From contig JAISSQ010000058.1 in NCBI GenBank assembly GCA_031273045.1, positions 1 through 36,096 on the forward strand: a stretch of 36,096 bases of DNA. Direction: 5' to 3'. Every line of letters starts with the position of its first letter. Position 1 is the first letter of the stretch. The DNA is from Puniceicoccales bacterium (GTDB lineage: Bacteria; Verrucomicrobiota; Verrucomicrobiia; Opitutales; UBA953). Shown here piece after piece: positions 193 to 33,340 of the stretch. The notes under the pieces were generated by a model. That model did no database searches and was not told the DNA's origin. It saw only the letters and a list, made by a program, of their open reading frames with translations. The position numbers and the translations under genes were made by a program.

Positions 193-275
193 CCGCAATG
201 AGTTATTGCGGTGTTTTGCCCCAAATTTCCCACACCTGCAACGGCGTGGGGAAATCCCTGCGTCCGCAAGACGCA
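193..275 (+). promoter_or_regulatory. hairpin-rich leader before the Cna-B gene
   Basis: Three stem-loops follow one another between the C tract and the start codon. The first pairs 193-199 with 205-211 (7 bp, loop GAGTT) and is followed by GTGTTTT-like sequence, so it could terminate upstream transcription or attenuate. The second pairs 225-233 with 246-255 with one bulge. The third pairs 259-264 with 270-275 (6 bp, loop CGCAA). An A/C-rich unstructured stretch (about 279-314) leads to the ATG. Function is not known; no riboswitch class is recognised. Confidence 0.4.
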
Positions 276-314
276 TCCACCACAAAACAAAAAACACACA
301 CACGTAATACACAG

Positions 315-3300
315 ATGAAATCTGTTCAGCAAAAACTCGGCAGGACGCTCGCTCTGCTCGTCGCGACTGCGGCGGCGGCAAGCGTCCCGCTTTCCAACGC
401 GGAAGGTTGCACCACCTACGGCACGACCTTCTTCCCGACCTACGTGGCACCGGTGACAACGGCGCCCACGTTTAACTACACGGTGCCGACCTACACGCCG
501 ACACCGGTTTACACGACACCGGCATACACGGTGCCGGTGTGCACGACGCCCACCTACACGGTGCCGTCCTACACGGTGCCGTCCTACACCGTGCCGTCCT
601 ACACCGTGCCGACCTGCACCGTGCCGACATACACGACGCCCACTTACACGTGGCCGACGTGCACGACGCCCACCGTCACGGTGCCAACGTGCCCGACGAC
701 GCCGACGACGCCGACGGTGCCGACCTGCCCCGTCACGCCGGAGCCGGACCCGACGCCTGCCGCGCAGCCCGTCTCCGACTGCGGCAAGACCCCCTACAGC
801 AACTGGTGGAAGTGGCAACGCGCCAAGTCCAAGTGCTCCACGCCCTCGGTGCCCGTGCTGCCGGTGGCGTTTCCGTGCACACACACCAGCGAGAAAATCT
901 CAATCTGGGTCAAGAAGGAGTGGCCGGTTAACGACGACAACACTGTCGCGCGCGAACCCATCACCATCCAACTCTACCAGAACGGCACACTCTACCGGAG
1001 CAGTTCGACGCCGCTCATCTACGACGTCCAAGCGCTCACCTACACCTACGGCTACCCGACATTCGGCGCCTCGGTGAAAGGACGCGACCTCTACGAGTTC
1101 AAGGACCTTCCGCGCAAGGACGCGCAAGGCAACGCCTACACCTACACCATCAAGGAAGTCGTCACCTCCGGCAACGCCTACTCCATCGTCCCCAGCGAGA
1201 CAAACGAGCACGGCTACGACCCAGAGACGCAGACGTTCACCATCAACCCGGAGACAACGCCCGTCGAATACTACGGCGGTCACTACTACGTCCTGCTCTT
1301 CAAAAACCAGCGCACCACCGGTGCGGCAACACAGTCGGACGAGCCACTTCCTGTGACCATCACCGTCACCAAGACGTGGAACGACTACGACAACGCCGCC
1401 GGCGAACGCCCCGAATCGCTGCTCAACGTCCCCGTCGGCGACTCGGTGTCCAAGAGCGCGTTCGAACTCGTCGCCACCATTGACGGCGAATCGACTGTCC
1501 TCCCCGCCGACGCCTACGACGTCGTCGAGACCAAGAACGGCAACACGTGGACCTACACGTTCACCGGCGCCGCGCTGACGCGCACCACCGGCGAAGCCGA
1601 CGTCTCCGCGCGCAAGCAAATCTACTACTCCGTTCGCGAAGCACTCGTCCCCGCCAACTACACGGCGTCCGACGTCGAACCGGAAAGCGCGACCGCGAGC
1701 GGCTTCGGTCCCGTCTCGTTCTCGCTCACCAACTCGCACAACGCGAACTGGACGCGCGAGACCACCTCGCTCGCCGTCACCAAGAAATGGGAAGACGCCG
1801 GCAACGCCTACGGCAAGCGCCCCGCCACCCTGCTCGCCGTCGCCGCGCAAGAAGCCGTCGTTGACGATGCCGGAGAAGTCATCACGCCCGCCGTCACCGG
1901 CGTCGCCGCCCTGCTGAAGGTCGTCCGAGTCAACTCGGTCAACGACGACGGCACACAGGTCGTCACGGATGTCAGCAGCAGTGCCACCGTCACCGCCGTT
2001 GAGAACCCTGACAGCAACACGTGGACCTACACGTTCAGCGGTCTGCCCAAATACGACGGCGAAAGCGAAGCGGACAAGCAACTCATCGCTTACACCGTCA
2101 TCGAGACCGTCGCCACCGGTTCCGGCCTCGCCGGCTACAAGAGCGAAATCGTCCGCACCGACGCCGTCGGCACCTACGCCGCGACCGAGTTCGTTCCCGA
2201 CGAGGACGCCACCGACGAGGAGAACGCCGCCGCCGCCGCCGCGCACGAAGCCGAGCAGGAGGCCGCCTACGCCGCCGCCGAAGCCGAAGTCGCCGCCAAC
2301 GGTCAAAGCGTCACCGTCACCAACACCTACGAGGAAGTTGAGTTCGCCTTCACCAAAATCTGGGACACCAAGGGCAACTCCGCCTTCCTGCCGGAAACCC
2401 TGACCGTCACGCTCTACGCCAACGGCGTCCAAAGCGGCGAGTCGGTCGCGTTCACCACCGCCGGCTACACCACCGAAGGGCAACTCTTCGTGAACACGTT
2501 CAAGTTCACCAACCTGCCCAAATACGCCGACGGCGTTGAAATCGTTTACAGCGTCGCCGAAACCGTCCCCGAAAACTTCGCGGCCAGCGTGCTGACCGAC
2601 GACAGCTTCGTTGCCGGCAACACCGTCGCCACCGGCGGCACACTCAAAAACGTGTTCGTCATTGGCAGTATTCGCACCGAGGTCAGCGTCACCAAACAAT
2701 GGGTGAAACCCGAACTGCCGTCAGCAACGTCGTCCGAAAATATCAACGAATACACTGACCCTCACGGTACCAAAGTGACCGAGACCATCACGACGACCAC
2801 GGCGTGGTCATACGTCGCTGACGTGCCGGAAACGCTCGCCCCCTACCTCACGCTCAAAGCGAACGGAGTCGCCGTCGAAGGCGTCACCGCCGTCAAGAGC
2901 GTCACCGAGGACGGCGTCGAGACCTACACGTTCGCAGACCTTCCGAAATACGACAGCACGTTCACCGAAATCACCTACACCGTCGTCGAGAGCACGGTTG
3001 ACGGTTTCGAGATTACCGGTGACGCCGAAGTCGCCGCCGGCGGCGCACTCGTCAACACCGCGAAGATCGTTTCAACAACGAGCACATCGTCCAGCGTGGA
3101 CTACGTTGACGACCTGCCGGATATCGTTCCCACGCCCGACGGCGAGAAAGTGAACTTCTGGGTCAAGGTGGACTTTGAGGACGCCGGCTCCGACGCCAGC
3201 ACCGTTAAGTTCCGCATCTGGCGCCAAGCCGGCGAGAACGGAACCATCGAACCGGTGACCACCGGTGCGACCTATTCCGCCCACTCCATCGGCGATAGCG

Positions 3301-3701
3301 GCGCGCTTCAATACATCTACAACGAAGCCACCGGCGTCTGGACTGTCCAGTTCGGTGGTCCGCTTCCTAACAACGTTGGTTCCCGCTATCTCTGGCAGTG
3401 GAGCAACCTCGACCGCTACACGACCGTTAATGGCGAAAAAGTGGAATACATCTACTACATTGAGCAACTCCCGCTCGCTGGCTACACGACGACGCTTCCC
3501 GAAGCCGTTGACCAAGCCGCGCAAGTCACCATTGACAACATCACCACCGGCGTCGCCGTGAAGATTAACTTCGAAGACCGTCGCCGCATCGAGTGGACCA
3601 GCAACGCTGCCACCGCTGTCACCATCCCGACGAATCTCCAGTCGGACGACCCGAACTACTACTTCGTCGCCTTCTTCCACAACGAGAAGACAACGGAGTA
3701 A
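315..3701 (+). CDS. secreted multi-domain Cna-B (isopeptide) surface protein with Cys/Tyr pentapeptide stalk
   Basis: A 1128-residue exported protein. The start at 315 is chosen because it opens a signal peptide (MKSVQQKLGRTLALLVATAA, cleavage near SNA-E); the frame is open back to 198 but that adds a non-signal leader. Residues about 54-141 are a low-complexity stalk of (Y/C)TxP(T/S) pentapeptides. Six Cna-B-like beta modules follow. Each has the three residues that form intramolecular Lys-Asn isopeptide bonds in this family: Lys near 200, 353, 490, 681, 794 and 951; Glu in YTIKE, YSVRE, YTVIE, YSVAE, YTVVE and YYIEQ; Asn in the last strand (473, 670, 779, 914 and 1123 for modules 2-6). Module 3 carries an Ala/Glu-rich insertion. 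There is no LPxTG or membrane anchor, so attachment is unclear. A role as adhesin or surface stalk is inferred. Followed by its own terminator, so it is probably monocistronic. Confidence 0.88.
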   Translation: MKSVQQKLGRTLALLVATAAAASVPLSNAEGCTTYGTTFFPTYVAPVTTAPTFNYTVPTYTPTPVYTTPAYTVPVCTTPTYTVPSYTVPSYTVPSYTVPTCTVPTYTTPTYTWPTCTTPTVTVPTCPTTPTTPTVPTCPVTPEPDPTPAAQPVSDCGKTPYSNWWKWQRAKSKCSTPSVPVLPVAFPCTHTSEKISIWVKKEWPVNDDNTVAREPITIQLYQNGTLYRSSSTPLIYDVQALTYTYGYPTFGASVKGRDLYEFKDLPRKDAQGNAYTYTIKEVVTSGNAYSIVPSETNEHGYDPETQTFTINPETTPVEYYGGHYYVLLFKNQRTTGAATQSDEPLPVTITVTKTWNDYDNAAGERPESLLNVPVGDSVSKSAFELVATIDGESTVLPADAYDVVETKNGNTWTYTFTGAALTRTTGEADVSARKQIYYSVREALVPANYTASDVEPESATASGFGPVSFSLTNSHNANWTRETTSLAVTKKWEDAGNAYGKRPATLLAVAAQEAVVDDAGEVITPAVTGVAALLKVVRVNSVNDDGTQVVTDVSSSATVTAVENPDSNTWTYTFSGLPKYDGESEADKQLIAYTVIETVATGSGLAGYKSEIVRTDAVGTYAATEFVPDEDATDEENAAAAAAHEAEQEAAYAAAEAEVAANGQSVTVTNTYEEVEFAFTKIWDTKGNSAFLPETLTVTLYANGVQSGESVAFTTAGYTTEGQLFVNTFKFTNLPKYADGVEIVYSVAETVPENFAASVLTDDSFVAGNTVATGGTLKNVFVIGSIRTEVSVTKQWVKPELPSATSSENINEYTDPHGTKVTETITTTTAWSYVADVPETLAPYLTLKANGVAVEGVTAVKSVTEDGVETYTFADLPKYDSTFTEITYTVVESTVDGFEITGDAEVAAGGALVNTAKIVSTTSTSSSVDYVDDLPDIVPTPDGEKVNFWVKVDFEDAGSDASTVKFRIWRQAGENGTIEPVTTGATYSAHSIGDSGALQYIYNEATGVWTVQFGGPLPNNVGSRYLWQWSNLDRYTTVNGEKVEYIYYIEQLPLAGYTTTLPEAVDQAAQVTIDNITTGVAVKINFEDRRRIEWTSNAATAVTIPTNLQSDDPNYYFVAFFHNEKTTE
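474..735 (+). repeat. 15-bp coding repeats for (Y/C)TxP(T/S) pentapeptides
   Basis: Imperfect tandem 15-bp units, such as the three successive copies around 555-605, encode five-residue repeats with Tyr or Cys at the first position and Pro at the fourth. The Cys and Tyr periodicity suggests an extended polyproline-like rod that could be cross-linked by disulfides. Copy number probably varies between strains, as is typical for such tracts. Confidence 0.8.
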
Positions 3702-19787: not shown

Positions 19788-20366
19788 CTACGCGCCGCCG
19801 CGCGAGCCGAAAACCGCCGCGCCGAGGTTGAGGTCAAAGTTCGTCCACGCCCAAGTGGAGTCGGGTTTGAGCGGTCCGCCGTGCAGTTTCAGCCCTTCGC
19901 TCCACTGGCGGCCGCCGGCGGGCTGGCGGACGACAAATTGTTTCGACGCGCTGCCGCCGCTACCGGCGGCGTCCTCCACGCGCAGGGTTTCGAGCGGCGC
20001 GAACGTGCAAAGCAGTTCGGTGTGGCGGCCGGTCTTGCCGTGAATGCGCAGCAGGCGGCTGAAAATCAGCGCACCGGTGGCGGTGTCCGCCGCCTCCTCC
20101 GCGAACTGCTCGAAGACGGGCATGCGCGCCGGCGCGCCCTCCGTGTTCGGCGGCAGTCCGGCGAGCGCGAGCAGGTCGTTCTCTTCGAGCACCCACGGCG
20201 CGGTCAGGTCGTTGACGGGGAGCGTCTGCGTGAAACGGGCAATCAGCCCCGCCGGTCCCGAAAGGCGCAGCGGCACCGGCGAGCAGAGCGTGAAAACTTT
20301 TTCCGCGAGTGCCGCCGCCGGTGCCGGTGAGCCGCCGCAGGAGCAGGAATAAATCTTGAAGGCCAT
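19788..20366 (-). CDS. hypothetical protein, unknown function
   Basis: A 192-residue protein with start MAFKIYSCSCGGSPAPAAAL at 20366; an extension to 20582 would run into the divergent gene and is low-complexity. Visible traits are an N-terminal CSC motif followed by Gly/Ser/Pro/Ala repeats, and a central globular part (TLPVNDLTAPWVLEENDLLALAG and FEQFAEEAADTATGALIFSR). It ends WTNFDLNLGAAVFGSRGGA, with several aromatic residues. It has no signal peptide and no membrane helix. I do not recognise a family. It is divergent from the HzsA-like gene (75 bp apart) and 80 bp upstream of the topoisomerase-repeat gene on the same strand, with which it may form an operon. Confidence 0.55.
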   Translation of the reverse strand: MAFKIYSCSCGGSPAPAAALAEKVFTLCSPVPLRLSGPAGLIARFTQTLPVNDLTAPWVLEENDLLALAGLPPNTEGAPARMPVFEQFAEEAADTATGALIFSRLLRIHGKTGRHTELLCTFAPLETLRVEDAAGSGGSASKQFVVRQPAGGRQWSEGLKLHGGPLKPDSTWAWTNFDLNLGAAVFGSRGGA

Positions 20367-20440
20367 TGCCCTCGTTGAAGCAAGAAATGTGCCGCCGGTG
20401 GTGCCACAAATGCGGCGGGGACGTGTCTGAACGGGGCGAG

Positions 20441-23359
20441 ATGAAGAATTTCGCGACGATGATTGGCGCCGCCGCGCTCGCGCTGGCGGCAGGGATTTCC
20501 ACGCCGGCGGCGATGAATGCGGCACCGGCGGCGAAGGCAAAGGCGGCACCGGCAACGGCGAAGGCGGTTCCACCGGCGGCACCGGTGGTGCCGGAGCCGG
20601 CGGAGAAATGCGTGGCGTTCGTCGCCGAGGTGCTGGGGCGCGAACTCGCGCCGGCGGAACGCGCTTCCGATGCGGCGTTGTGGGCGGCGCTCGAAGCGGG
20701 CGACGAGTTGCTCGCGGATTGGCTGCGGCAGGATTTGAAGTCGCCGTTCGGGAAGGCGTTGTTCGCCGACGGCGAGCCGTGGGTCGCGCTGGACGCGGCG
20801 CTTCGTTCCGCGAAGGCGCGGGGAGGCAGTGCGGCGGCGTCGCCGCAGGGGGCGAAAGGCGTCACCGGCGGCGCGACCACCACCGGCAGCGTCCGTTTTT
20901 GCGCGGAGCATTTGCCGTCGCTCGCCGAATACCGCGCTGTCTGCGCGAAGCGGCGCGCCGCGCGCATTGCCGATGTCGTCCGGCAGACGCCGCGCCTCGT
21001 CTATGCGCGGCACTTCGTGATGGGCGGTTCGCATTACGCTTACACGGAGGCGGTGACGGACGCGCAGTCCGAGCGCTACATCCGCGTCGGCGCGCGGCTG
21101 TGTCTCGCCGAGTTCGACGCCGCCGGTGGTCTCTGGCGCGAGACGGTGCTGCTCGACTCGCCGGAGGGAGTCATTCGCGACGTGGATGTTGATTTCGACG
21201 CGCGGCGCATTCTCTTCTCGTGGCGGAAGAGCAATCGCGGCGACGACTACCATCTCTACGAAATGCCCGTCTCCGCCGACGGTGTGCCGCAGCCCGCCGC
21301 GCTCCGCCAACTCACGTCCGAGCCGCGTGTCGCCGACTACGAGGGTTGCTACCTGCCCGACGGCTCAATCCTGTTCAACTCCACGCGCTGCCAGCAAATC
21401 GTGGACTGCTGGTGGACGGAGGTCTCGAACCTCTACCGGTGCGACGCCGACGGCGGCAACATCCTGCGCGTCTCTTTCGACCAAGTGCACGACAACTACC
21501 CGACCGTCTCGTGGGACAACCGCGTGCTCTACACGCGCTGGGAATACAACGACCGCTCCCAGATGTATCCGCAGCCGCTTTTCTCAATGGCGCCAGACGG
21601 CACGAACCAGACCGCCGTCTATGGCGAGAACTCGTGGTTCCCGACGACCATCGCGCACGCCCGCGCCGTGCCGAACTCGTCCGCGATTTTCGCCGTCGCC
21701 ACCGGTCACCACAGCGCGCAGCCCGGCGAACTCATCCTCATTGAGCCGAAGCGCGGGCGGCAGGAGACGAGCGGCGTCACGCGCGTCGCGCCGGTGCGTC
21801 CGCACGTCAAGCCCGACCCCATCATCATCGACCAATACGGACAGGGCGCGGAGTTGTTCGCCTACCCGTGGCCGCTCGACGAGCGGCAGTTGCTCGTCTC
21901 CCACAACCCGACGGGCTGGCGCGGCATCAAGAGTCAGGGGAACCCGGGCACCGGCGCCCACGCGCCGTTCGGCATCTATTGGTTCAACGTTGCCGGCGAG
22001 CGCGAATTGCTCGTGTCGCGCACCGGCGGCGTCGGCATCGGATGCGGACGCCCCGTTCCGCTCGCGCCGCGCCGGCGCCCGCCCGCCCGCCCGTCGTTCG
22101 TGGACTACGCGAAAGACCACGGCACGTTCAACATCGTGGACGTCTATCAGGGCGCGGCGATGCGCGGTGTCGAGCGCGGCACGGTGAAAACGTTGCGCGT
22201 CATCGGGCTGGATTTCCGCGTCGCCGGCATCGGCAGTAACCGCAACGGCGGCCGCGGCGGTCACGCGATGGTCTGCACACCCGTCGCCTGCAACAACGGC
22301 GCGTGGGACGTCAAAATCCCGCTCGGCGATGTGCCCGTGCACCCCGACGGCAGCGTGTTCTTCAAGGCACCGGCGCGCCGTCCGTTCTACTTTCAACTGC
22401 TCGATGAGCGCGGCCGCGTTGTCCAGACAATGCGCAGTTGGACAGTGCTCCAGCCCGGCGAGGACGCCTCGTGCGTCGGCTGCCACGAGAGCAAGGACAG
22501 TGCGCCGCCGCCGAGCGTCCGCCCGCCCAAGGCGATGCAAAGCGCACCGGCGACGCTTGCGAATTTTTGGCGCGCCGTCGGCCGCCCCGAAGTCGCTGCC
22601 GGCGCCGCCGCCGACCCCCGCACCACCAAGCGCGGCATCAGTTTCCCGCAGGACATCCAACCGATTTTGGACAAGCACTGCGTGGGCTGCCACGGGGGTG
22701 GTGTGGGGAGCGGGGAGCAGGGAGCGGGGAGTGGGGAGATAGTGCGAGGGAAAGAAGGGCAAAGGGATAAGGGCAAAGGGCAAAGGGTAGTCACCGGTGA
22801 CGTTGGCGAAGCGCAGCGGAGCCAGTCAGCGGCGGCACCGGCGGCACCGGTGGCGTCTTCGCCCGCACGCGGCGCAGCCACCGGATTATCGCCCCGCTCC
22901 ACAGACAATCCCGCCCCAGACCTCCGCGCTGTGCCGGCGCCCGACGGCGGCTCCAAGCGCGTCTGGCTGCGCTCTTACCTGAACCTCGTCCACAACGGAA
23001 ACGCCGGTCATCCGGTTCTGAATTGGATAAGTGCCGCCAGCGAGCCGACCATTCTTGCGCCGCGCAATGCCGGTGCCGCCCGCAGCAAACTCTTTGCCCT
23101 GCTCGACGCCAACCACGGTAAGACCCGCATCACCCGCGAGGAAATCGCCCTCCTCGCCGCATGGGTGGATATGGGCGTCCCCTTCTGCGGCGACTACACC
23201 GAAGCCGCCGCTTGGTCCGAGCGCGACCGCGCCAAGCACGACCATTACCAGCGCAAGCGCACTGCCGCCGACGCCGCCGACGCCGCCACTCTCGCCCGTC
23301 TCCGCGCCGCCTCATGGAGCGCCGGCTATCAAGACGGCCCGCCGGTGGTGCGGCGGTAG
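20441..23359 (+). CDS. HzsA-like secreted di-heme cytochrome c protein
   Basis: A 972-residue exported protein. The start MKNFATMIGAAALALAAGIS opens a signal peptide and follows CGGGGCG. The central part (about 180-560) is a beta-propeller-like region with WRKSNRGDDYHLYEMPV, DYEGCYLPDGSILFNSTRCQ and DNRVLYTRWEYNDRSQMYP, matching the hydrazine-synthase-alpha-related family common in Planctomycetes and Verrucomicrobia. Two heme c motifs are present, CVGCH at Cys678 and CVGCH at Cys747, the second in the IQPILDKHCVGCHGG context. Immediately after it lies the composite repeat (residues about 758-820), then the C-terminal domain. hzsB/C are not here, so hydrazine synthesis is not implied; periplasmic electron transfer or redox sensing is more likely. 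The last residues (WSAGYQDGPPVVRR) lie inside a repeat element. Confidence 0.8.
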   Translation: MKNFATMIGAAALALAAGISTPAAMNAAPAAKAKAAPATAKAVPPAAPVVPEPAEKCVAFVAEVLGRELAPAERASDAALWAALEAGDELLADWLRQDLKSPFGKALFADGEPWVALDAALRSAKARGGSAAASPQGAKGVTGGATTTGSVRFCAEHLPSLAEYRAVCAKRRAARIADVVRQTPRLVYARHFVMGGSHYAYTEAVTDAQSERYIRVGARLCLAEFDAAGGLWRETVLLDSPEGVIRDVDVDFDARRILFSWRKSNRGDDYHLYEMPVSADGVPQPAALRQLTSEPRVADYEGCYLPDGSILFNSTRCQQIVDCWWTEVSNLYRCDADGGNILRVSFDQVHDNYPTVSWDNRVLYTRWEYNDRSQMYPQPLFSMAPDGTNQTAVYGENSWFPTTIAHARAVPNSSAIFAVATGHHSAQPGELILIEPKRGRQETSGVTRVAPVRPHVKPDPIIIDQYGQGAELFAYPWPLDERQLLVSHNPTGWRGIKSQGNPGTGAHAPFGIYWFNVAGERELLVSRTGGVGIGCGRPVPLAPRRRPPARPSFVDYAKDHGTFNIVDVYQGAAMRGVERGTVKTLRVIGLDFRVAGIGSNRNGGRGGHAMVCTPVACNNGAWDVKIPLGDVPVHPDGSVFFKAPARRPFYFQLLDERGRVVQTMRSWTVLQPGEDASCVGCHESKDSAPPPSVRPPKAMQSAPATLANFWRAVGRPEVAAGAAADPRTTKRGISFPQDIQPILDKHCVGCHGGGVGSGEQGAGSGEIVRGKEGQRDKGKGQRVVTGDVGEAQRSQSAAAPAAPVASSPARGAATGLSPRSTDNPAPDLRAVPAPDGGSKRVWLRSYLNLVHNGNAGHPVLNWISAASEPTILAPRNAGAARSKLFALLDANHGKTRITREEIALLAAWVDMGVPFCGDYTEAAAWSERDRAKHDHYQRKRTAADAADAATLARLRAASWSAGYQDGPPVVRR
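22712..22900 (+). repeat. composite intragenic repeat inside the HzsA-like gene (copy B)
   Basis: Left arm GGGGAGCAGGGAGCGGGG at 22712-22729, 34-bp GGCAAAGGG-rich core at 22754-22787, and a right-arm region at 22883-22900 correspond in order, orientation and reading frame to copy A in argS. The middle part is about 70 bp longer than in argS, containing CCGGCGGCACCGGTGG units. It encodes EGQRDKGKGQ directly after the second heme motif. Confidence 0.85.
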
Positions 23360-23432
23360 CCGCCATTCTTTTTTAGAGAAGCAAGGCGGCTGCGCCGCAT
23401 CTCCCCCAAGCCGACTTGAAAGTCGGCGCTCC
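23316..23432. mobile_element. MITE-like element, copy 1
   Basis: A roughly 117-bp palindromic element. The left end lies in the last codons of the HzsA-like gene and resembles a GGAGCGCCGACTTTCAAG terminus with a few changes; the right end is the conserved AGCCGACTTGAAAGTCGGC followed by GCTCC. The centre is a hairpin: stem 23349-23364 with 23385-23399, with a 20-base loop holding TTTTTTAGAGA. The loop is 18 of 20 identical to the reverse complement of that in copy 2. It may also act as a terminator between the two convergent genes. Confidence 0.8.
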
Positions 23433-23454
23433 CAGTGCGGCGCTCCCAGTGCGG
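23427..23454. repeat. 14-bp direct tandem duplication
   Basis: CGCTCCCAGTGCGG occurs twice in a row, at 23427-23440 and 23441-23454, starting inside the right end of the MITE-like element. It looks like a duplication made by slippage or by the element's insertion. Confidence 0.85.
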
Positions 23455-23490
23455 CGTGTCCGGTGGCGGGGAGCGCGGTGGCGGGAGCGG

Positions 23491-24783: not shown

Positions 24784-26889
24784 TCACTTGACGGTCATCT
24801 GCACGACGCTGCGCGGCGGGATGCTCACCGGTAGCGGGCTGCCGGCAGCGGCGGTGGTGCCGGTGCCGGTGGGGATTTCGGAGCGTTTCTCGCGGAAGCG
24901 CGCGCCGGGGGTGATGGTCAGGTTCGAGCCGTCCAGAAGGGTGTAGGTGCCGCTGCCGGTGGCACCGGTGCCAAATCCGCTCACCGACACGCTCACCGCC
25001 GTGTCGTAGTTTTTGTTAACGAGTGTCAGAACGCGCTCGCCGGTGGTCGGGTTGATGCTCGCGGTGGCGCGGAGGTCGGGGTGCCTTTTCGCGCCGGCGG
25101 CATTACCGGCGGCGTTGCCGCCAATTGTCACCGGCAGCACCTTGTTGCCGGTGTGCTTTTTGAAGAGGGAGAAGACCTGTCCGGTCGCGGTCAGGTAACT
25201 TGTCAGGAGCGGTTGGACGATGATTGCGCCTTCGTTGATTGGTTCGAAGAACATGAACGCGCCCAGCCCCAATTCGTCGGCGCCAGCGATGGCGTTGCCG
25301 AGCATCAGCGCCGCCATGACGCCTTCGATGATGCTCGGTTCGTGGTGGAGCGCGTGGACGGTGTTCCACTCGTCAAACGAGAGCGAGACGTGCTTGAACG
25401 CGGCGTCCTTGCTCATCGCGGCGCGGACGCCCCGCAGGTTGTTGAAGACGCCGTCGGCGTGGCGCGCGACGTCCTCGTAGGCGCGGCGCAACGCGCGTTC
25501 GCGGATGAAGTCGAGGTTTCCGTTCGAGTGGAAACTGCCTTGGTAGGAGTGGAACGAGGCGAACGCGAGTTCCTTGGCGAGCGGCGCCATCGCGCGGCGC
25601 CAGCCGGCGTTCCCGATGAAGCCGGAGCAGCACAGTTGGAGGTCGGGGGTGACGCGCCGCATCGCGCCGGCGGTCTGCAACGCCTTCTTCGCGTATTCGG
25701 CGGGCGAGTTAAGTCCTTCCATGTGCCCGTAGCCGAGTTCGTTGCCGAGCGACCAATACTTCACGTTGTAGGGTTCCTTGTGACCGCGCTCGATGCGCTT
25801 GCGCCCCCACTCGGTCGTCGCGTCGCCGTTGCAATACTCGACCCACTGCGCGGACTCGTGCGACGGCTCCCACGAGAGGTTGAGCGTGAGCGACGGCTCG
25901 GCACCGACTTCGCGGCACAGCGCGATGAACTCGTCAATGCCGATTTCGTGAAAGTCGAAACCGTCGGAATGCGTCTGCGTCTCGACGGGCATGTAAGAGT
26001 AGAGCGGCGCGCGCTGGTCCACCGGCAGCAGCCCGTCCTTCCAATAATACTCGCCGGCGAAGTTGCCGCCGGGCCAGCGCAGTTGACGCGCGCCGATGTC
26101 TTTGAGCCGTTCGACGACGTCGCGGCGCATCCCGTGAAAATTGTCCGCCGGCAGCAGCGACACCGCGCCGATTCGCAACTCCGCCCGCGCGTCAATGGAG
26201 AGTTGGAGCGTGGCGTTGAGTTCGTCCGCCGCCGGCGTGAACGCGAACTCGTATGCGGCGTATTTCTCGCCGTTGATGGCGAACGTCCGCTCGGCGAGCA
26301 CCGCGCCGGCGCGGTCAACAAAGCGCGCCAGCAGCGGCACCGGCACCGGTGACGGTGTGTTCGCGATGACTTTGAAAACGTATTTCGCGCCGCCCTTCAG
26401 CGGCAGGTTGTCCTGCTGGATGCCGCCGCGCTCGCCGGCGATTGGGTTTTGGAGCGAGACGGCGTTGATTTCCGCGCCGCGATTTCCGCGCACACGGCAA
26501 TTGTGCTTCGTGTAGGCGAGCGTCGGCGTGATGTTGATGAACGCGCGCGGCGTGCCGTAACGCTTCCACTGCACCGGTCCGCCGAAGTAGCCCGTCGGCT
26601 TGCCGGCGAACTTGCGATTGCGCAGCACCTGCGCCGACAAGCCCTGATAAACGCACGAGCGCGTGTGCTCGATGTTGTGCCCGAACAACAGCGGCGAAAC
26701 CGTGCCCGTGCCCGCCGGTGCTCCCGCCGGCACCTCGCCAACGACGATTTTAACGGCGTCCGCCGGCGACGCCGGCGCGGACGGTGCCACTGCCGGCGAC
26801 GCTGCCGGTGCGGCATTTTGCGCGGCGGCACCGGTGACGCCGGCGGCGAGCGCGAGAAGGGAGAAAGCGAGGGAAGCGTGAAGGTTCAT
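24784..26889 (-). CDS. secreted alpha-L-arabinofuranosidase (GH51)
   Basis: A 701-residue exported glycosidase that removes terminal arabinofuranose from arabinan, arabinoxylan or pectin side chains. The start at 26889 (MNLHASLAFSLLALAAGVTG) gives a signal peptide cleaved near AAA-Q; the open frame continues to 26991 but without a signal. The N-terminal beta domain (SPLLFGHNIEHTRSCVYQGL) is followed by the TIM barrel with ARQLRWPGGNFAGEYYWKDG. The acid/base Glu384 lies in YWSLGNELGYG and the nucleophile Glu507 in SFDEWNTV. The C-terminal beta-sandwich holds two repeat-coded Gly/Thr/Ala segments (GTGATGSGT, TGTGTTAAAGS). It is followed by the PAS kinase gene after 36 bp and divergent from the P-loop kinase gene. 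Confidence 0.9.
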   Translation of the reverse strand: MNLHASLAFSLLALAAGVTGAAAQNAAPAASPAVAPSAPASPADAVKIVVGEVPAGAPAGTGTVSPLLFGHNIEHTRSCVYQGLSAQVLRNRKFAGKPTGYFGGPVQWKRYGTPRAFINITPTLAYTKHNCRVRGNRGAEINAVSLQNPIAGERGGIQQDNLPLKGGAKYVFKVIANTPSPVPVPLLARFVDRAGAVLAERTFAINGEKYAAYEFAFTPAADELNATLQLSIDARAELRIGAVSLLPADNFHGMRRDVVERLKDIGARQLRWPGGNFAGEYYWKDGLLPVDQRAPLYSYMPVETQTHSDGFDFHEIGIDEFIALCREVGAEPSLTLNLSWEPSHESAQWVEYCNGDATTEWGRKRIERGHKEPYNVKYWSLGNELGYGHMEGLNSPAEYAKKALQTAGAMRRVTPDLQLCCSGFIGNAGWRRAMAPLAKELAFASFHSYQGSFHSNGNLDFIRERALRRAYEDVARHADGVFNNLRGVRAAMSKDAAFKHVSLSFDEWNTVHALHHEPSIIEGVMAALMLGNAIAGADELGLGAFMFFEPINEGAIIVQPLLTSYLTATGQVFSLFKKHTGNKVLPVTIGGNAAGNAAGAKRHPDLRATASINPTTGERVLTLVNKNYDTAVSVSVSGFGTGATGSGTYTLLDGSNLTITPGARFREKRSEIPTGTGTTAAAGSPLPVSIPPRSVVQMTVK

Positions 26890-26937
26890 GCGAGGGGAAA
26901 CGAGGTTTACACGACGTTGTGCGCACGGGCAGACACA

Positions 26938-27005
26938 CACCACCGGCAGCGGTTCCGGCGGCACCGGCGGTGGCGGCGCGGGCAACGGCACCGGCGGTGG
27001 CGGGC
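26938..27005. repeat. CCGGCGGCACCGGCGG repeat cluster in a divergent gap
   Basis: The 203-bp region between the divergently read GH51 and P-loop kinase genes holds five CACCGGCnG-type units. It should contain promoters in both directions. No clear -35/-10 pair is visible. Confidence 0.55.
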
Positions 27006-28912: not shown

Positions 28913-28981
28913 GGTAACGTCAAAAATCCCGTTGACGCCACCGGTGGCGCGGTTAGAACCACCGGCAACACCACCGGCAAC

Positions 28982-29042
28982 GCCTCCGAAAAACGTCACG
29001 CCTCCGAACCGTTCTTCGTCACGCCTCCGAACCGCCTCCGAA
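28982..29042. repeat. four copies of GCCTCCGAA before the UbiA gene
   Basis: GCCTCCGAA occurs at 28982-28990, 29000-29008, 29023-29031 and 29034-29042; two are preceded by CGTCAC. They fill the last part of the 150-bp gap before the UbiA start at 29063. Nothing else recognisable lies in this gap other than CCACCGGCAACA units at 28949-28980. Confidence 0.8.
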
Positions 29043-29062
29043 CCGCCCTTTCTCCCGTTGAC

Positions 29063-29974
29063 ATGAAACCCTATTTTGAACTCCTGCGCGTTCATCATTA
29101 CGTCAAGAACCTGCTCATTTTCATCCCCGTATTTTTCAGCCAGAATTTCCTCGACCCGCACTTTTTTCTCGCCGCGTTCACCGGCTTCGTCTGCTTCTCG
29201 CTGACCGCCTCAATCGTCTATATTCTCAACGATATTCGCGACATCGAGAAAGACCGCGCGCACTCGAAAAAGCGCAACCGCCCGTTGCCGTCGGGGCGCG
29301 TCACGAAGCGCGCCGCAATCCTCCTCGCCGGCGGACTCGCGCTCGCCATCGCCGCAATCATCGCGTTCTGGAGCACACGCTCGCCCGCGTTCCACCCCGC
29401 CGGTTGGACGGAACCGCTCCTGCTCGCGACCTACATGACCATCAACATCGGCTACTCGCTCGCGTGGAAAAACGTCCCCATTCTCGACGTCGCCATCCTC
29501 GCCGCCGGCTTCGTCCTGCGCGTCATTTTCGGCGCAATCATCATTGACGTCGCCATCTCCCCGTGGCTCTACCTCACCATCATCGTCGGCTCGTTTTACA
29601 TGGGCTTCGGCAAACGCCGTAACGAAATCCAAAAAGAAACCGGCAAGACCCGCGAAGTGAACCGCCGCTATTCGCACAACTTTCTCGACAAAAACATGTA
29701 TCTTTGCATGGCACTCTCCGTCGTTTTTTACTCCCTGTGGACAATTTCCGACGAAACAGTCGCCCGCTTCGGCTCAAAAGCGTTCCTCTACACCGTCCCG
29801 CTCTTCATCATAATCCTGATGAAATACAGTTTGAACATCGAACGCGCCTCCGACGGCGACCCCACCAGCGTCATCCTCAAAGACAAATACCTCGTCGGAC
29901 TCGTCCTGCTCTTCGGCGCACTCGTGTTCCTCATTGCGAACTCTCGCCTCATTGCGGAGTTTTTGCCCAAGTAA
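29063..29974 (+). CDS. UbiA-family prenyltransferase, polyprenyl-phosphate phosphoribosyltransferase-like
   Basis: A 303-residue integral membrane enzyme with about eight to nine helices. The first Asp-rich motif NDIRDIEKDRAHSKKRNRPL with PSG (56-78) is close to decaprenyl-phosphate phosphoribosyltransferase (DPPR synthase), which joins phosphoribosyl pyrophosphate to polyprenyl phosphate, rather than to quinone or heme prenyltransferases. A second polar loop carries YMGFGKRRNEIQKETGKTRE and NRRYSHNFLDKNM. It is followed after 7 bp by a HAD phosphatase-GtrA fusion, which supplies the next two steps of such a pathway. The substrate assignment is inferred from motif and context; other UbiA reactions remain possible. 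Confidence 0.82.
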   Translation: MKPYFELLRVHHYVKNLLIFIPVFFSQNFLDPHFFLAAFTGFVCFSLTASIVYILNDIRDIEKDRAHSKKRNRPLPSGRVTKRAAILLAGGLALAIAAIIAFWSTRSPAFHPAGWTEPLLLATYMTINIGYSLAWKNVPILDVAILAAGFVLRVIFGAIIIDVAISPWLYLTIIVGSFYMGFGKRRNEIQKETGKTREVNRRYSHNFLDKNMYLCMALSVVFYSLWTISDETVARFGSKAFLYTVPLFIIILMKYSLNIERASDGDPTSVILKDKYLVGLVLLFGALVFLIANSRLIAEFLPK

Positions 29975-29981
29975 CTATCAA

Positions 29982-31118
29982 ATGAACATTTACGACTTCG
30001 ACGACACCATTTACGCCGGCGACAGTTCCGTCAAATTTTTCCTCTTTGCCCTCCGCCGGCACCCCCGCCTCGCCCTCGGACTACCCGCGCAATTCTGGGC
30101 GATTTTGCGCTACAACCTCGGACTCGGCACACGCGAAGAAATGAAAGAACGCTACTTCGCGTTTATCAAAAAAATCCCCTTGGACGCCGAAATAGCCGCG
30201 TTTTGGAACGAAAACCGCGCAAAAATCAAATCATGGTATCTCGCCCAGAAACGCCCCGACGACCTCATCGTCTCCGCCTCGCCGGAGTTCCTGCTCGCGG
30301 ACATCGTCCAAAAACACCTCGGCGTCCACCTCATCGCCTCCAAACTCTCACCGGTAACGCTCAAATACGACGGACTGAACTGCCGCGGCGACGAAAAAGT
30401 CCGCCGCATCCGCGAAGTTTTTCACAACCTCTACCCCGACAAGGACTTACCCGACGCCAAAAACGCCGCCAACGTCCCCGGCGCCCCCGCCCCCGAAAAT
30501 CCCGTCGAAGCGTGCTATTCCGACTCCCTCTCCGACGCCCCCCTTGTCAACCTCGCCCCGCCCCACGGACGCTACATGGTTCGCGGCGACCGCCGCCTCT
30601 TGTGGCACGACTACCGCCCATCCCTGCTTTCCCGCCTAAAATCCACCTTTTTGACCCCGAAATTCATCCTTTTTGTGTTTTGCGGCGGCACCGGCACCGC
30701 CGTCAACATCCTCTGCTCCACCCTCTTCCTCCTCCTCCTCGGCGGCAACGCCACGCGCGGACAAGTCAGCACCGGCGGCGAATTCTCATTCACCCTCGCC
30801 CAAACCGCCTACGCATTTGGTTACGCCGCAAGCATTTTTGCCACCTACACCCTCAACGCGAAATTGGTCTTTCACGCGAAACTCGCCCTCCTCGACTTCC
30901 TTAAATTTGTCGCCTCCTACATCCCGAACTTCCTCATCTTGTTCGCCTTTGTCTCCCTCTTGCTGAACACCGCCGGCTGGCCGCCGGTGCTGGTCTATAC
31001 CCTCGCCGCCTTCGTCGCCATCCCCATCACCTACCTCCTCGTGAAACTCCTTGTCTTCGGCGGCATTGACAAACGCGCCGCCACCACTGGTGCCGGTGGC
31101 CGTGCTATGCGGAAATGA
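29982..31118 (+). CDS. HAD phosphatase fused to GtrA-like membrane domain
   Basis: A 378-residue fusion. The N-terminal part is a HAD-family phosphatase, with nucleophile Asp5 and acid Asp7 (DFDDTI), Ser98 in IVSASPEF, a Lys near 139 (GDEKVRR) and the metal-binding acidic pair Asp181/Asp185 (YSDSLSDAPL). From about residue 225 a GtrA-type domain with four membrane helices follows, beginning FILFVFCGGTGTAVNIL and containing YTLNAKLVFHAK. GtrA proteins are proposed flippases of polyprenyl-linked sugars. The start at 29982 is set by the HAD motif. Together with UbiA next to it, the fusion would dephosphorylate and flip a polyprenyl-phospho-pentose. It overlaps the convergent ABC gene at the 3' end by 14 bp. 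Confidence 0.88.
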   Translation: MNIYDFDDTIYAGDSSVKFFLFALRRHPRLALGLPAQFWAILRYNLGLGTREEMKERYFAFIKKIPLDAEIAAFWNENRAKIKSWYLAQKRPDDLIVSASPEFLLADIVQKHLGVHLIASKLSPVTLKYDGLNCRGDEKVRRIREVFHNLYPDKDLPDAKNAANVPGAPAPENPVEACYSDSLSDAPLVNLAPPHGRYMVRGDRRLLWHDYRPSLLSRLKSTFLTPKFILFVFCGGTGTAVNILCSTLFLLLLGGNATRGQVSTGGEFSFTLAQTAYAFGYAASIFATYTLNAKLVFHAKLALLDFLKFVASYIPNFLILFAFVSLLLNTAGWPPVLVYTLAAFVAIPITYLLVKLLVFGGIDKRAATTGAGGRAMRK

Positions 31119-33139: not shown

Positions 33140-33190
33140 GGCACCGGCGGCGGGGAAAGGCGGGTCAGGAGCGCGAGGAGCACCGCATAC

Positions 33191-33220
33191 ATGGAGCGCC
33201 GCACATGGAGCGCCACACAT
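33191..33220. repeat. tandem ACATGGAGCGCC units before MITE-like copy 2
   Basis: ATGGAGCGCC is repeated at 33191 and 33205, and again at 33219 where it begins the left end of the element, with a period of 14 bases. They look like repeated copies of the terminal bases of the element, comparable to the 14-bp duplication beside copy 1. Confidence 0.8.
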
Positions 33221-33340
33221 GGAGCGCCGACTTTCAAGTCGGCTCGGCGGTGTTGCGGCGATAGCCGCCTTGCGTCTCTAAAAAAGAGTGGCGGCTACCG
33301 CCGCACGGAGGGGGCGAGCCGACTTGAAAGTCGGCGCTCC
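33221..33340. mobile_element. MITE-like element, copy 2 (complete)
   Basis: A 120-bp element with perfect 24-bp terminal inverted repeats at 33221-33244 and 33317-33340; each contains the inner palindrome GCCGACTT-AAGTCGGC. The centre is a hairpin with 16-bp stems (33254-33269 with 33290-33305, one mismatch) and a 20-base loop holding TCTCTAAAAAAGAG. The central loop is inverted relative to copy 1. It contains no gene, so any transposition would need an enzyme in trans. It occupies the gap between the convergent SGNH and GH78 genes. Confidence 0.88.

Follow-up and report, generated by a model that had tools for sequence, protein, structure and literature searches.

A putative two-gene cassette for a lipid-linked ribose donor, with a HAD phosphatase domain fused to a GtrA domain, in a Puniceicoccales bacterium

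A UbiA gene and a HAD-GtrA gene side by side

The window, by which we mean the whole 36,096-nucleotide stretch of DNA analysed here, comes from a Puniceicoccales bacterium whose genome is a 3.1-Mb draft that is 84% complete. Open reading frame calling places two adjacent genes on its + strand, at positions 29063-29974 and 29982-31118, the first encoding a UbiA protein and the second a protein in which a HAD domain is joined to a GtrA domain. The features of this cassette are:

29063..29974, + strand: PPPRS-like UbiA, a putative PRPP-using polyprenyl-phosphate phosphoribosyltransferase (303 aa, ATG start)
29228..29254, + strand: NDIRDIEKD motif, residues 56-64, equivalent to Asn73, Asp77 and Asp81 of Rv3806c (alignment)
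29975..29981, + strand: intergenic gap of 7 bp
29982..31118, + strand: HAD-GtrA fusion protein (378 aa)
29982..30620, + strand: HAD-IB phosphatase domain, approximately residues 1-213 (Pfam, alignment, predicted structure)
30423..30491, + strand: insertion of about 23 residues in the HAD domain, approximately residues 148-170 (alignment)
30672..31058, + strand: GtrA/DPMS-type transmembrane domain, residues 231-359 (Pfam, predicted structure)

The GC contents of the two genes are 0.560 and 0.589, versus 0.656 for the window. By Pfam, the upstream neighbour is a DUF4143 ATPase gene and the downstream, convergent neighbour an ABC ATPase gene, and neither hints at a glycan locus. The stretch ahead of the UbiA gene (window 28913-29062) holds short, imperfect repeats of the ACGCCTCCGAACCG type. 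Among the stretches of this genome that were compared, an interspersed repeat about 110-180 bp long, in either orientation and with pieces 73-88% identical, was seen three times (window 33150-33330, window 23313-23456 and L104:2451-2595). Elsewhere the window encodes a 1167-aa protein with four Cna_B domains that is a possible surface protein (198-3701), a 997-aa protein with a match to the hydrazine synthase alpha middle domain (20366-23359; PF18582, 8.1e-31) and a glycosidase (24784-26991). The preliminary description of this DNA had called the last of these a secreted arabinofuranosidase whose presence might be coincidental, and with only an L-arabinofuranosidase-type domain it is indeed probably unrelated; the 7-bp spacing reported there was likewise borne out.

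The UbiA protein matches Pfam PF01040 (1.7e-20, over its curated cut-off), and its top NCBIfam model is the decaprenyl-phosphate phosphoribosyltransferase NF008977 (5.5e-62, 209.8 bits), whose cut-off of 234 bits it does not reach, so that it is not filed as an NF008977 equivalog; it falls under the cut-offs of both nearest NCBIfam equivalogs. The quinone-type model ubiA_proteo gives it just 37.8 bits, and its best PDB match is Rv3806c (8j8j, 5.7e-27). The available portion of PMC10994848 names twelve PRPP-site residues of M. tuberculosis Rv3806c and describes the roles of Asn73 and Asp77. Nine of the twelve are identical in the UbiA protein (R22, K28, Y70, N73, D77, K87, R90, Y138 and K143), and the differing positions are Q135->N, Y157->F and K208->E, the first two of these changes being common to most PRPP-type rows of our alignment. 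This alignment holds 29 proteins, namely 25 PRPP-type rows and four quinone/heme-type rows (E. coli UbiA, MenA and CyoE together with a second, MenA-like UbiA from the same genome as the cassette). All 25 PRPP-type rows keep R22, K28, Y70, N73, D77, K87, R90 and Y138, and 24 of them keep K143, which is R in Legionella; K28, Y70 and K87 are missing in all four quinone/heme-type rows. On these PRPP-site residues and the NCBIfam scores, a quinone or heme prenyltransferase identity was rejected.

A tree of the UbiA proteins was used for local grouping only, as its deep branches are unreliable. Locally, the UbiA protein groups with those of Treponema L034 and L036 (96/92), sharing 52% identity with the latter. 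At depth, the E. coli rows sit on branches of 3 to 9.5, and MenA and the MenA-like protein of the same genome fall inside the PRPP group with a branch length of 10, a placement that probably reflects long-branch attraction; by itself the tree leaves quinone classes possible. A phylogenetic check of the UbiA class, as put forward in the preliminary description, is thus usable for the Treponema grouping and unreliable for the deep placement, while its assignment of the protein to the DPPR-synthase-like class of Rv3806c agrees with the NCBIfam scores, the 8j8j match and the PRPP-site residues. Most likely, as judged from these sequence comparisons, the UbiA protein transfers phosphoribose from PRPP to polyprenyl phosphate.

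The second reading frame is open from 29934 to 31118, and its start is set by homology at ATG 29982, as every relative begins [MVLI]N[VI]YDFD. Its HAD domain is recognised by PF12710 over residues 3-162 (2.3e-14, 54.7 bits, cut-off 27) and scores under the cut-offs of the narrower NCBIfam models TIGR01490 and TIGR01488. D5, D7, S98, K139, D181 and D185, which we take to be the HAD motif residues by role, are invariant in a 32-row HAD alignment, and the insertion of about 23 residues is absent from every other row and is modelled with low confidence. The GtrA domain matches PF04138 (9.7e-8, 32.7 bits, cut-off 26.1), and its LNAKLVF motif resembles ANAKFTF of YfdG. In an AlphaFold model of the whole protein built from the 32-row alignment (mean pLDDT 87.6), the first 213 residues resemble HAD-IB enzymes, with 3fvv at Z 18.3 and SerB-like proteins at Z 11-15, and the phosphatase domain of the ribofuranosyl transferase structure 7shg follows at Z 8.3 and rank 46; as modelled, the HAD fold is nearer to the SerB-like phosphatases than to the 7shg phosphatase domain. 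Residues 214-361 resemble the membrane domain of dolichyl-phosphate mannose synthase (5mm1, Z 9.0). PDB sequence searches returned no match for the fusion protein, only 3fvv for the HAD profile and no match for a profile of the PRP-type HAD, and a search of phages gave two partial HAD matches only. The join between the two domains is not a frame artefact, because the same fusion recurs in other loci. Both the Pfam domains and this recurrence agree with the earlier proposal that phosphatase and GtrA lie in one chain, and the phosphatase does belong, as had been claimed, to another family than the PAP2-type enzyme found beside the actinobacterial gene.

Recurrence and rearrangement of the modules

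Contigs were scanned with the HAD-GtrA alignment and the best 80 of 574 relatives were kept, a sample that is not random. The HAD-GtrA fusion occurs in 20 of these 80 loci and also in G167 and G134, the latter apparently being the same record as L040 given their identical scores. A PRPP-type UbiA is found in 17 of the best 80 loci, adjacent to the HAD gene in 16 of them and parted from it by a GtrA gene in the other (L068, from Treponema, with the order UbiA, GtrA, HAD). The neighbourhood of UbiA and HAD is therefore more than chance, and it takes several forms. The order GT-C-like gene, UbiA, HAD-GtrA fusion is seen in G167, G134/L040 and L031; G211 has GT-C-like, UbiA and HAD without GtrA; a Lactococcus EPS plasmid has GT-C-like, UbiA, HAD and GtrA as separate genes beside polysaccharide genes; Treponema L034 and L036 have UbiA, HAD, an SMR/EamA-like gene and a GT-C-like gene; and the archaeon Methanomicrobium mobile has UbiA and HAD (L072). 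Across Bacillota, Spirochaetota, Lentisphaerae and this one archaeon, then, HAD and GtrA are separate or fused, or an SMR-like protein stands instead of GtrA. At L087:4839-8078 a HAD of the same type is fused to a DUF6080 membrane protein in a chain of 1080 aa that is followed by UbiA, which constitutes a second kind of fusion for the HAD module.

In a phylogeny of 42 HAD domains, the label 'fused' has to change nine times, and well-supported branches force at least two of these changes, suggesting that the HAD-GtrA fusion was probably gained or lost more than once; the HAD of the window branches with an unfused one from Treponema, though not with strong support (93/73). Eleven of 19 genomes with the fusion, many of them drafts, have no PRPP-type UbiA at E<=1e-5, and the fusion is therefore not always part of a pentose pathway. 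In Clostridia without UbiA, fused HAD-GtrA genes follow CarD, IspD and IspF type genes at eight loci (L018, L022, L023, L026, L027, L029, L030 and L035, with Pfam confirmation for L018), and these eight fusions form a clade of their own (97/96) with the window protein outside it. They must either act on another lipid or have a UbiA that is missing from the drafts, and the identity of their lipid substrate may be the more novel question.

These contexts bear on a second account of the window gene, in which HAD-GtrA is a general phosphatase and exporter for other lipid head groups, such as phosphatidylinositol phosphate, phosphatidylglycerophosphate or another polyprenyl product, and its adjacency to UbiA is mere arrangement. 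Besides the CarD-IspD-IspF clade in genomes without PRPP-type UbiA, such an account draws on the fusion that follows a CDP-alcohol phosphatidyltransferase gene in L032, on the one that precedes a GT2 gene in L024, and on B. thetaiotaomicron, which groups a GtrA-like protein with genes for PIP synthase and PIP phosphatase. For the window gene itself we nonetheless consider it quite unlikely, as a PRPP-type UbiA is the direct neighbour both there and at six of the 20 fused loci, and the window protein lies outside the IspD-IspF clade. Taken across genomes, the CarD-IspD-IspF clade and the L032 and L024 contexts are the reason why HAD-GtrA may be a general lipid-head-group module that is not specific to pentose. 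We tentatively suggest, as an idea that could well prove wrong, that it is a reusable module that would first dephosphorylate and then export lipid-linked phospho-head groups whose phosphate would otherwise block flipping, its two parts having been repeatedly joined and split, with an SMR-type protein swapped in for GtrA in some cassettes and another lipid served in the Clostridia that have no UbiA.

Probable donor sugar, candidate glycosyltransferase partners and the forms in related organisms

The preliminary description left the donor as polyprenyl-phospho-ribose or -arabinose, and pointed to a genome search for DprE1. PF04030 proved a poor marker, as the DprE1-like neighbours found in relatives fall under its cut-off or are unmatched, and the search was redone for this reason with an alignment of seven DprE1-like proteins. 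By neither route was a DprE1 found in the 84%-complete genome, where the sole match of the seven-protein alignment is the FAD domain of an FAD-oxidase_C protein. Ribose is favoured over arabinose because no DprE1 was found, so that only the first half of the earlier alternative is supported. Polyprenyl-phospho-D-arabinofuranose made in the mycobacterial style would be in keeping with the DprE1-like and DprE2-like genes that adjoin the PPPRS gene in several relatives and in Rhizobium; given the result of the seven-protein search in the genome carrying the window, we regard it as very unlikely here.

No GT-C gene is adjacent to the window cassette. Candidates elsewhere in the same genome comprise eight PMT_2 matches and six regions with homology to the GT-C encoded next to the HAD-UbiA gene of G008, none of which is tied to the cassette. 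A stand-alone GtrA protein adjoins a PMT_2-type GT-C at L105:3097-3756 of this genome, a possible second pair for export and transfer. In the other cassettes, the GT-C-like neighbours from Lentisphaerae, Lactococcus, Treponema and Clostridia form a single family, a grouping that rests on profile scores as identities go down to 17-27% among the first four members. The members located are:

L034:6924-8606, L036:6929-8629, L031:3368-5032, L011:5522-7279, L010:7490-9088 and L149:3037-4776: GT-C-like family members

These proteins have about 530-630 aa and 10-15 predicted helices, and the members tested have no Pfam match over cut-off. A further member lies beside the HAD-UbiA fusion of G082 (E 2e-32), and a search of the genome carrying the window, run without a positive control, returned no match to the family. 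Probably, these proteins make up a so far undescribed GT-C family that uses lipid-linked pentose, the label 'GT-C' deriving from topology, from position and, for some members, from a weak resemblance to DUF6080; the AlphaFold model of a Treponema member has a pLDDT of 46.5.

Among related organisms the window layout stands apart. A search at E<=1e-5 found no HAD-GtrA in 94 other relatives, and across the phylum five of 387 genomes give matches, the present one included; of these, G117 has only a decayed piece of GtrA, interrupted by a stop codon, and G211 the HAD part only. PRPP-type UbiA is present in 14 of 90 relatives, again counting this genome, and in nine of the other 13 it lies in open frames of 433-527 aa. 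An N-terminal HAD domain was aligned in all six long frames that were fetched and confirmed by Pfam in both of the two tested, which makes these the one-chain HAD-UbiA form described by Kelly et al. (PMC11127046). In a genome of the same genus (G008) the HAD-UbiA gene stands beside two PMT_2-type GT-Cs, and in one of the same family (G036) HAD-UbiA occurs with DprE1-like, SDR and GtrA genes. The window-type HAD profile fails to reach 1e-3 on all six HAD-UbiA proteins of relatives, and the window-type and HAD-UbiA-type HAD groups align to each other with an hhalign probability of 97.8. The organism thus has a layout unlike that of these relatives, with a HAD that, judging from the profile comparisons, is apparently of another subfamily.

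This isolation, together with the lower GC content of the cassette, the decayed GtrA copy in G117 and the missing GT-C neighbour, could be read as a cassette that was acquired and is now orphaned or decaying, having no working glycan target. Both frames are intact, however, and the PRPP-site and HAD motif residues are kept, and we find this reading scarcely credible.

A proposed pathway and its relation to known systems

We consider it reasonably likely that the two genes form a cassette for the synthesis and export of polyprenyl-phospho-ribofuranose. The UbiA protein would join PRPP and polyprenyl phosphate to give polyprenyl-phospho-ribose-5-phosphate, and the HAD domain would then take off the 5'-phosphate, as its recurrent linkage to UbiA and its intact motifs suggest. 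The tethered GtrA domain may carry the resulting polyprenyl-phospho-ribofuranose to the outer face or hold it for the next enzyme, and a GT-C encoded elsewhere would put the ribofuranose on a surface glycan. With the two domains in one chain, the fusion would hand the neutralised head group straight to the exporter. The PRPP-type UbiA step is strongly supported by the sequence comparisons and gene context and the HAD 5'-dephosphorylation step moderately so, while the export step and the end product are inferred. Citrobacter ORF15 gives a precedent for the UbiA and HAD steps: in the portion of PMC11127046 available, farnesyl-P-Ribf is obtained in vitro from a PPPRS together with a HAD phosphatase, and with D18A, a mutant of the HAD, the product keeps its 5-phosphate apart from a little farnesyl-P-Ribf.

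Whether GtrA proteins act as flippases or anchors is disputed, according to the available portion of PMC7389260, which cites Kolly 2015 and Brecik 2015 for the proposal that Rv3789 is an anchor and not a flippase. By extension, the GtrA domain of the window protein might serve as an anchor or recruiter that holds the phosphatase by UbiA or a GT-C, with another protein responsible for export. GtrA-like domains do form the membrane part of DPM synthase, and the fusion of HAD elsewhere to UbiA or to a DUF6080 membrane protein would fit simple membrane tethering. The Treponema cassettes, where an SMR/EamA-like protein takes the place of GtrA and the GT-C-like neighbour belongs to the same family, instead favour transport, and we consider an anchoring role unlikely.

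A lipid-linked pentose pathway outside actinobacteria, with HAD and UbiA in one chain and a separate flippase, was described by Kelly et al. in 2024 (PMC11127046, as far as the available text extends). The suggestion in the preliminary description of a pentose donor outside actinobacteria holds as to the pathway, but such a donor is not new, being already published (PMC11127046) and common in the records searched, where 99 plasmid records match the UbiA protein, with the class checked in part of them. In that paper's account of Citrobacter youngae O1, as given in the text available, ORF15 is a PRP-PPPRS, ORF14 a MATE/SMR-type protein and ORF12 a GT136. This locus and the window cassette share a PRPP-type UbiA and a HAD, and have polyprenyl-phospho-ribofuranose as predicted product. 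In Citrobacter, however, the HAD is joined to UbiA, the separate flippase comes from a different family and the locus includes the GT-C, whereas in the window a HAD apparently of another subfamily is joined to GtrA, a GtrA domain is present and no MATE/SMR-type protein, and the flanking genes encode DUF4143 and ABC ATPases. We therefore describe the window cassette as working like the three-component system of Kelly et al. without filing it as a member.

Other systems share some of the same parts. The mycobacterial DPA pathway (Rv3806c, Rv3807c, DprE1/2, Rv3789) has an Rv3806c-type UbiA and a GtrA protein in common with the window, which differs in having a HAD phosphatase and not Rv3807c/PAP2, in the fusion of HAD to GtrA and in that searches of the 84%-complete genome gave no DprE1. 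Rhizobium plasmid pSK02 (L117) encodes a HAD-UbiA fusion, GtrA, an FAD oxidoreductase, an SDR and a hypothetical protein, and thus the same three modules, but with the HAD on UbiA and epimerase genes present. The Lactococcus EPS plasmid pLLF27D (L010) has UbiA, HAD-IB and GtrA in the same order as the window, differing in that HAD and GtrA are separate (the annotated GtrA has only 83 aa) and the three are preceded by a GT-C-like gene. The yfdG-yfdH-yfdI Gtr glucosylation genes of E. coli share the GtrA-type domain; in Gtr cassettes, GtrB makes the sugar lipid from a nucleotide sugar, whereas in the window UbiA would make it from PRPP. In the literature searched, which covered few subscription papers, we found no description of a HAD-GtrA fusion; the words 'fusion' and 'fused' are absent from the main text of PMC11127046, where GtrA appears once, in connection with Shigella. 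What is new, then, is the domain arrangement, with HAD on GtrA, and apparently the phosphatase subfamily, within a known pathway.

A natural fusion of GtrA to an enzyme that would ready a lipid for export offers a compact test of the flippase and anchor models, and the SMR-type swap for GtrA in sister cassettes adds to this test system; if HAD-GtrA is a reusable module, transport by GtrA could be tested in one chain. The pentofuranose pathway would gain a further phosphatase type, and Bacillota of the gut and rumen, Treponema, Lentisphaerae and Methanomicrobium mobile, an archaeon, join the organisms with a predicted lipid-linked ribose donor.
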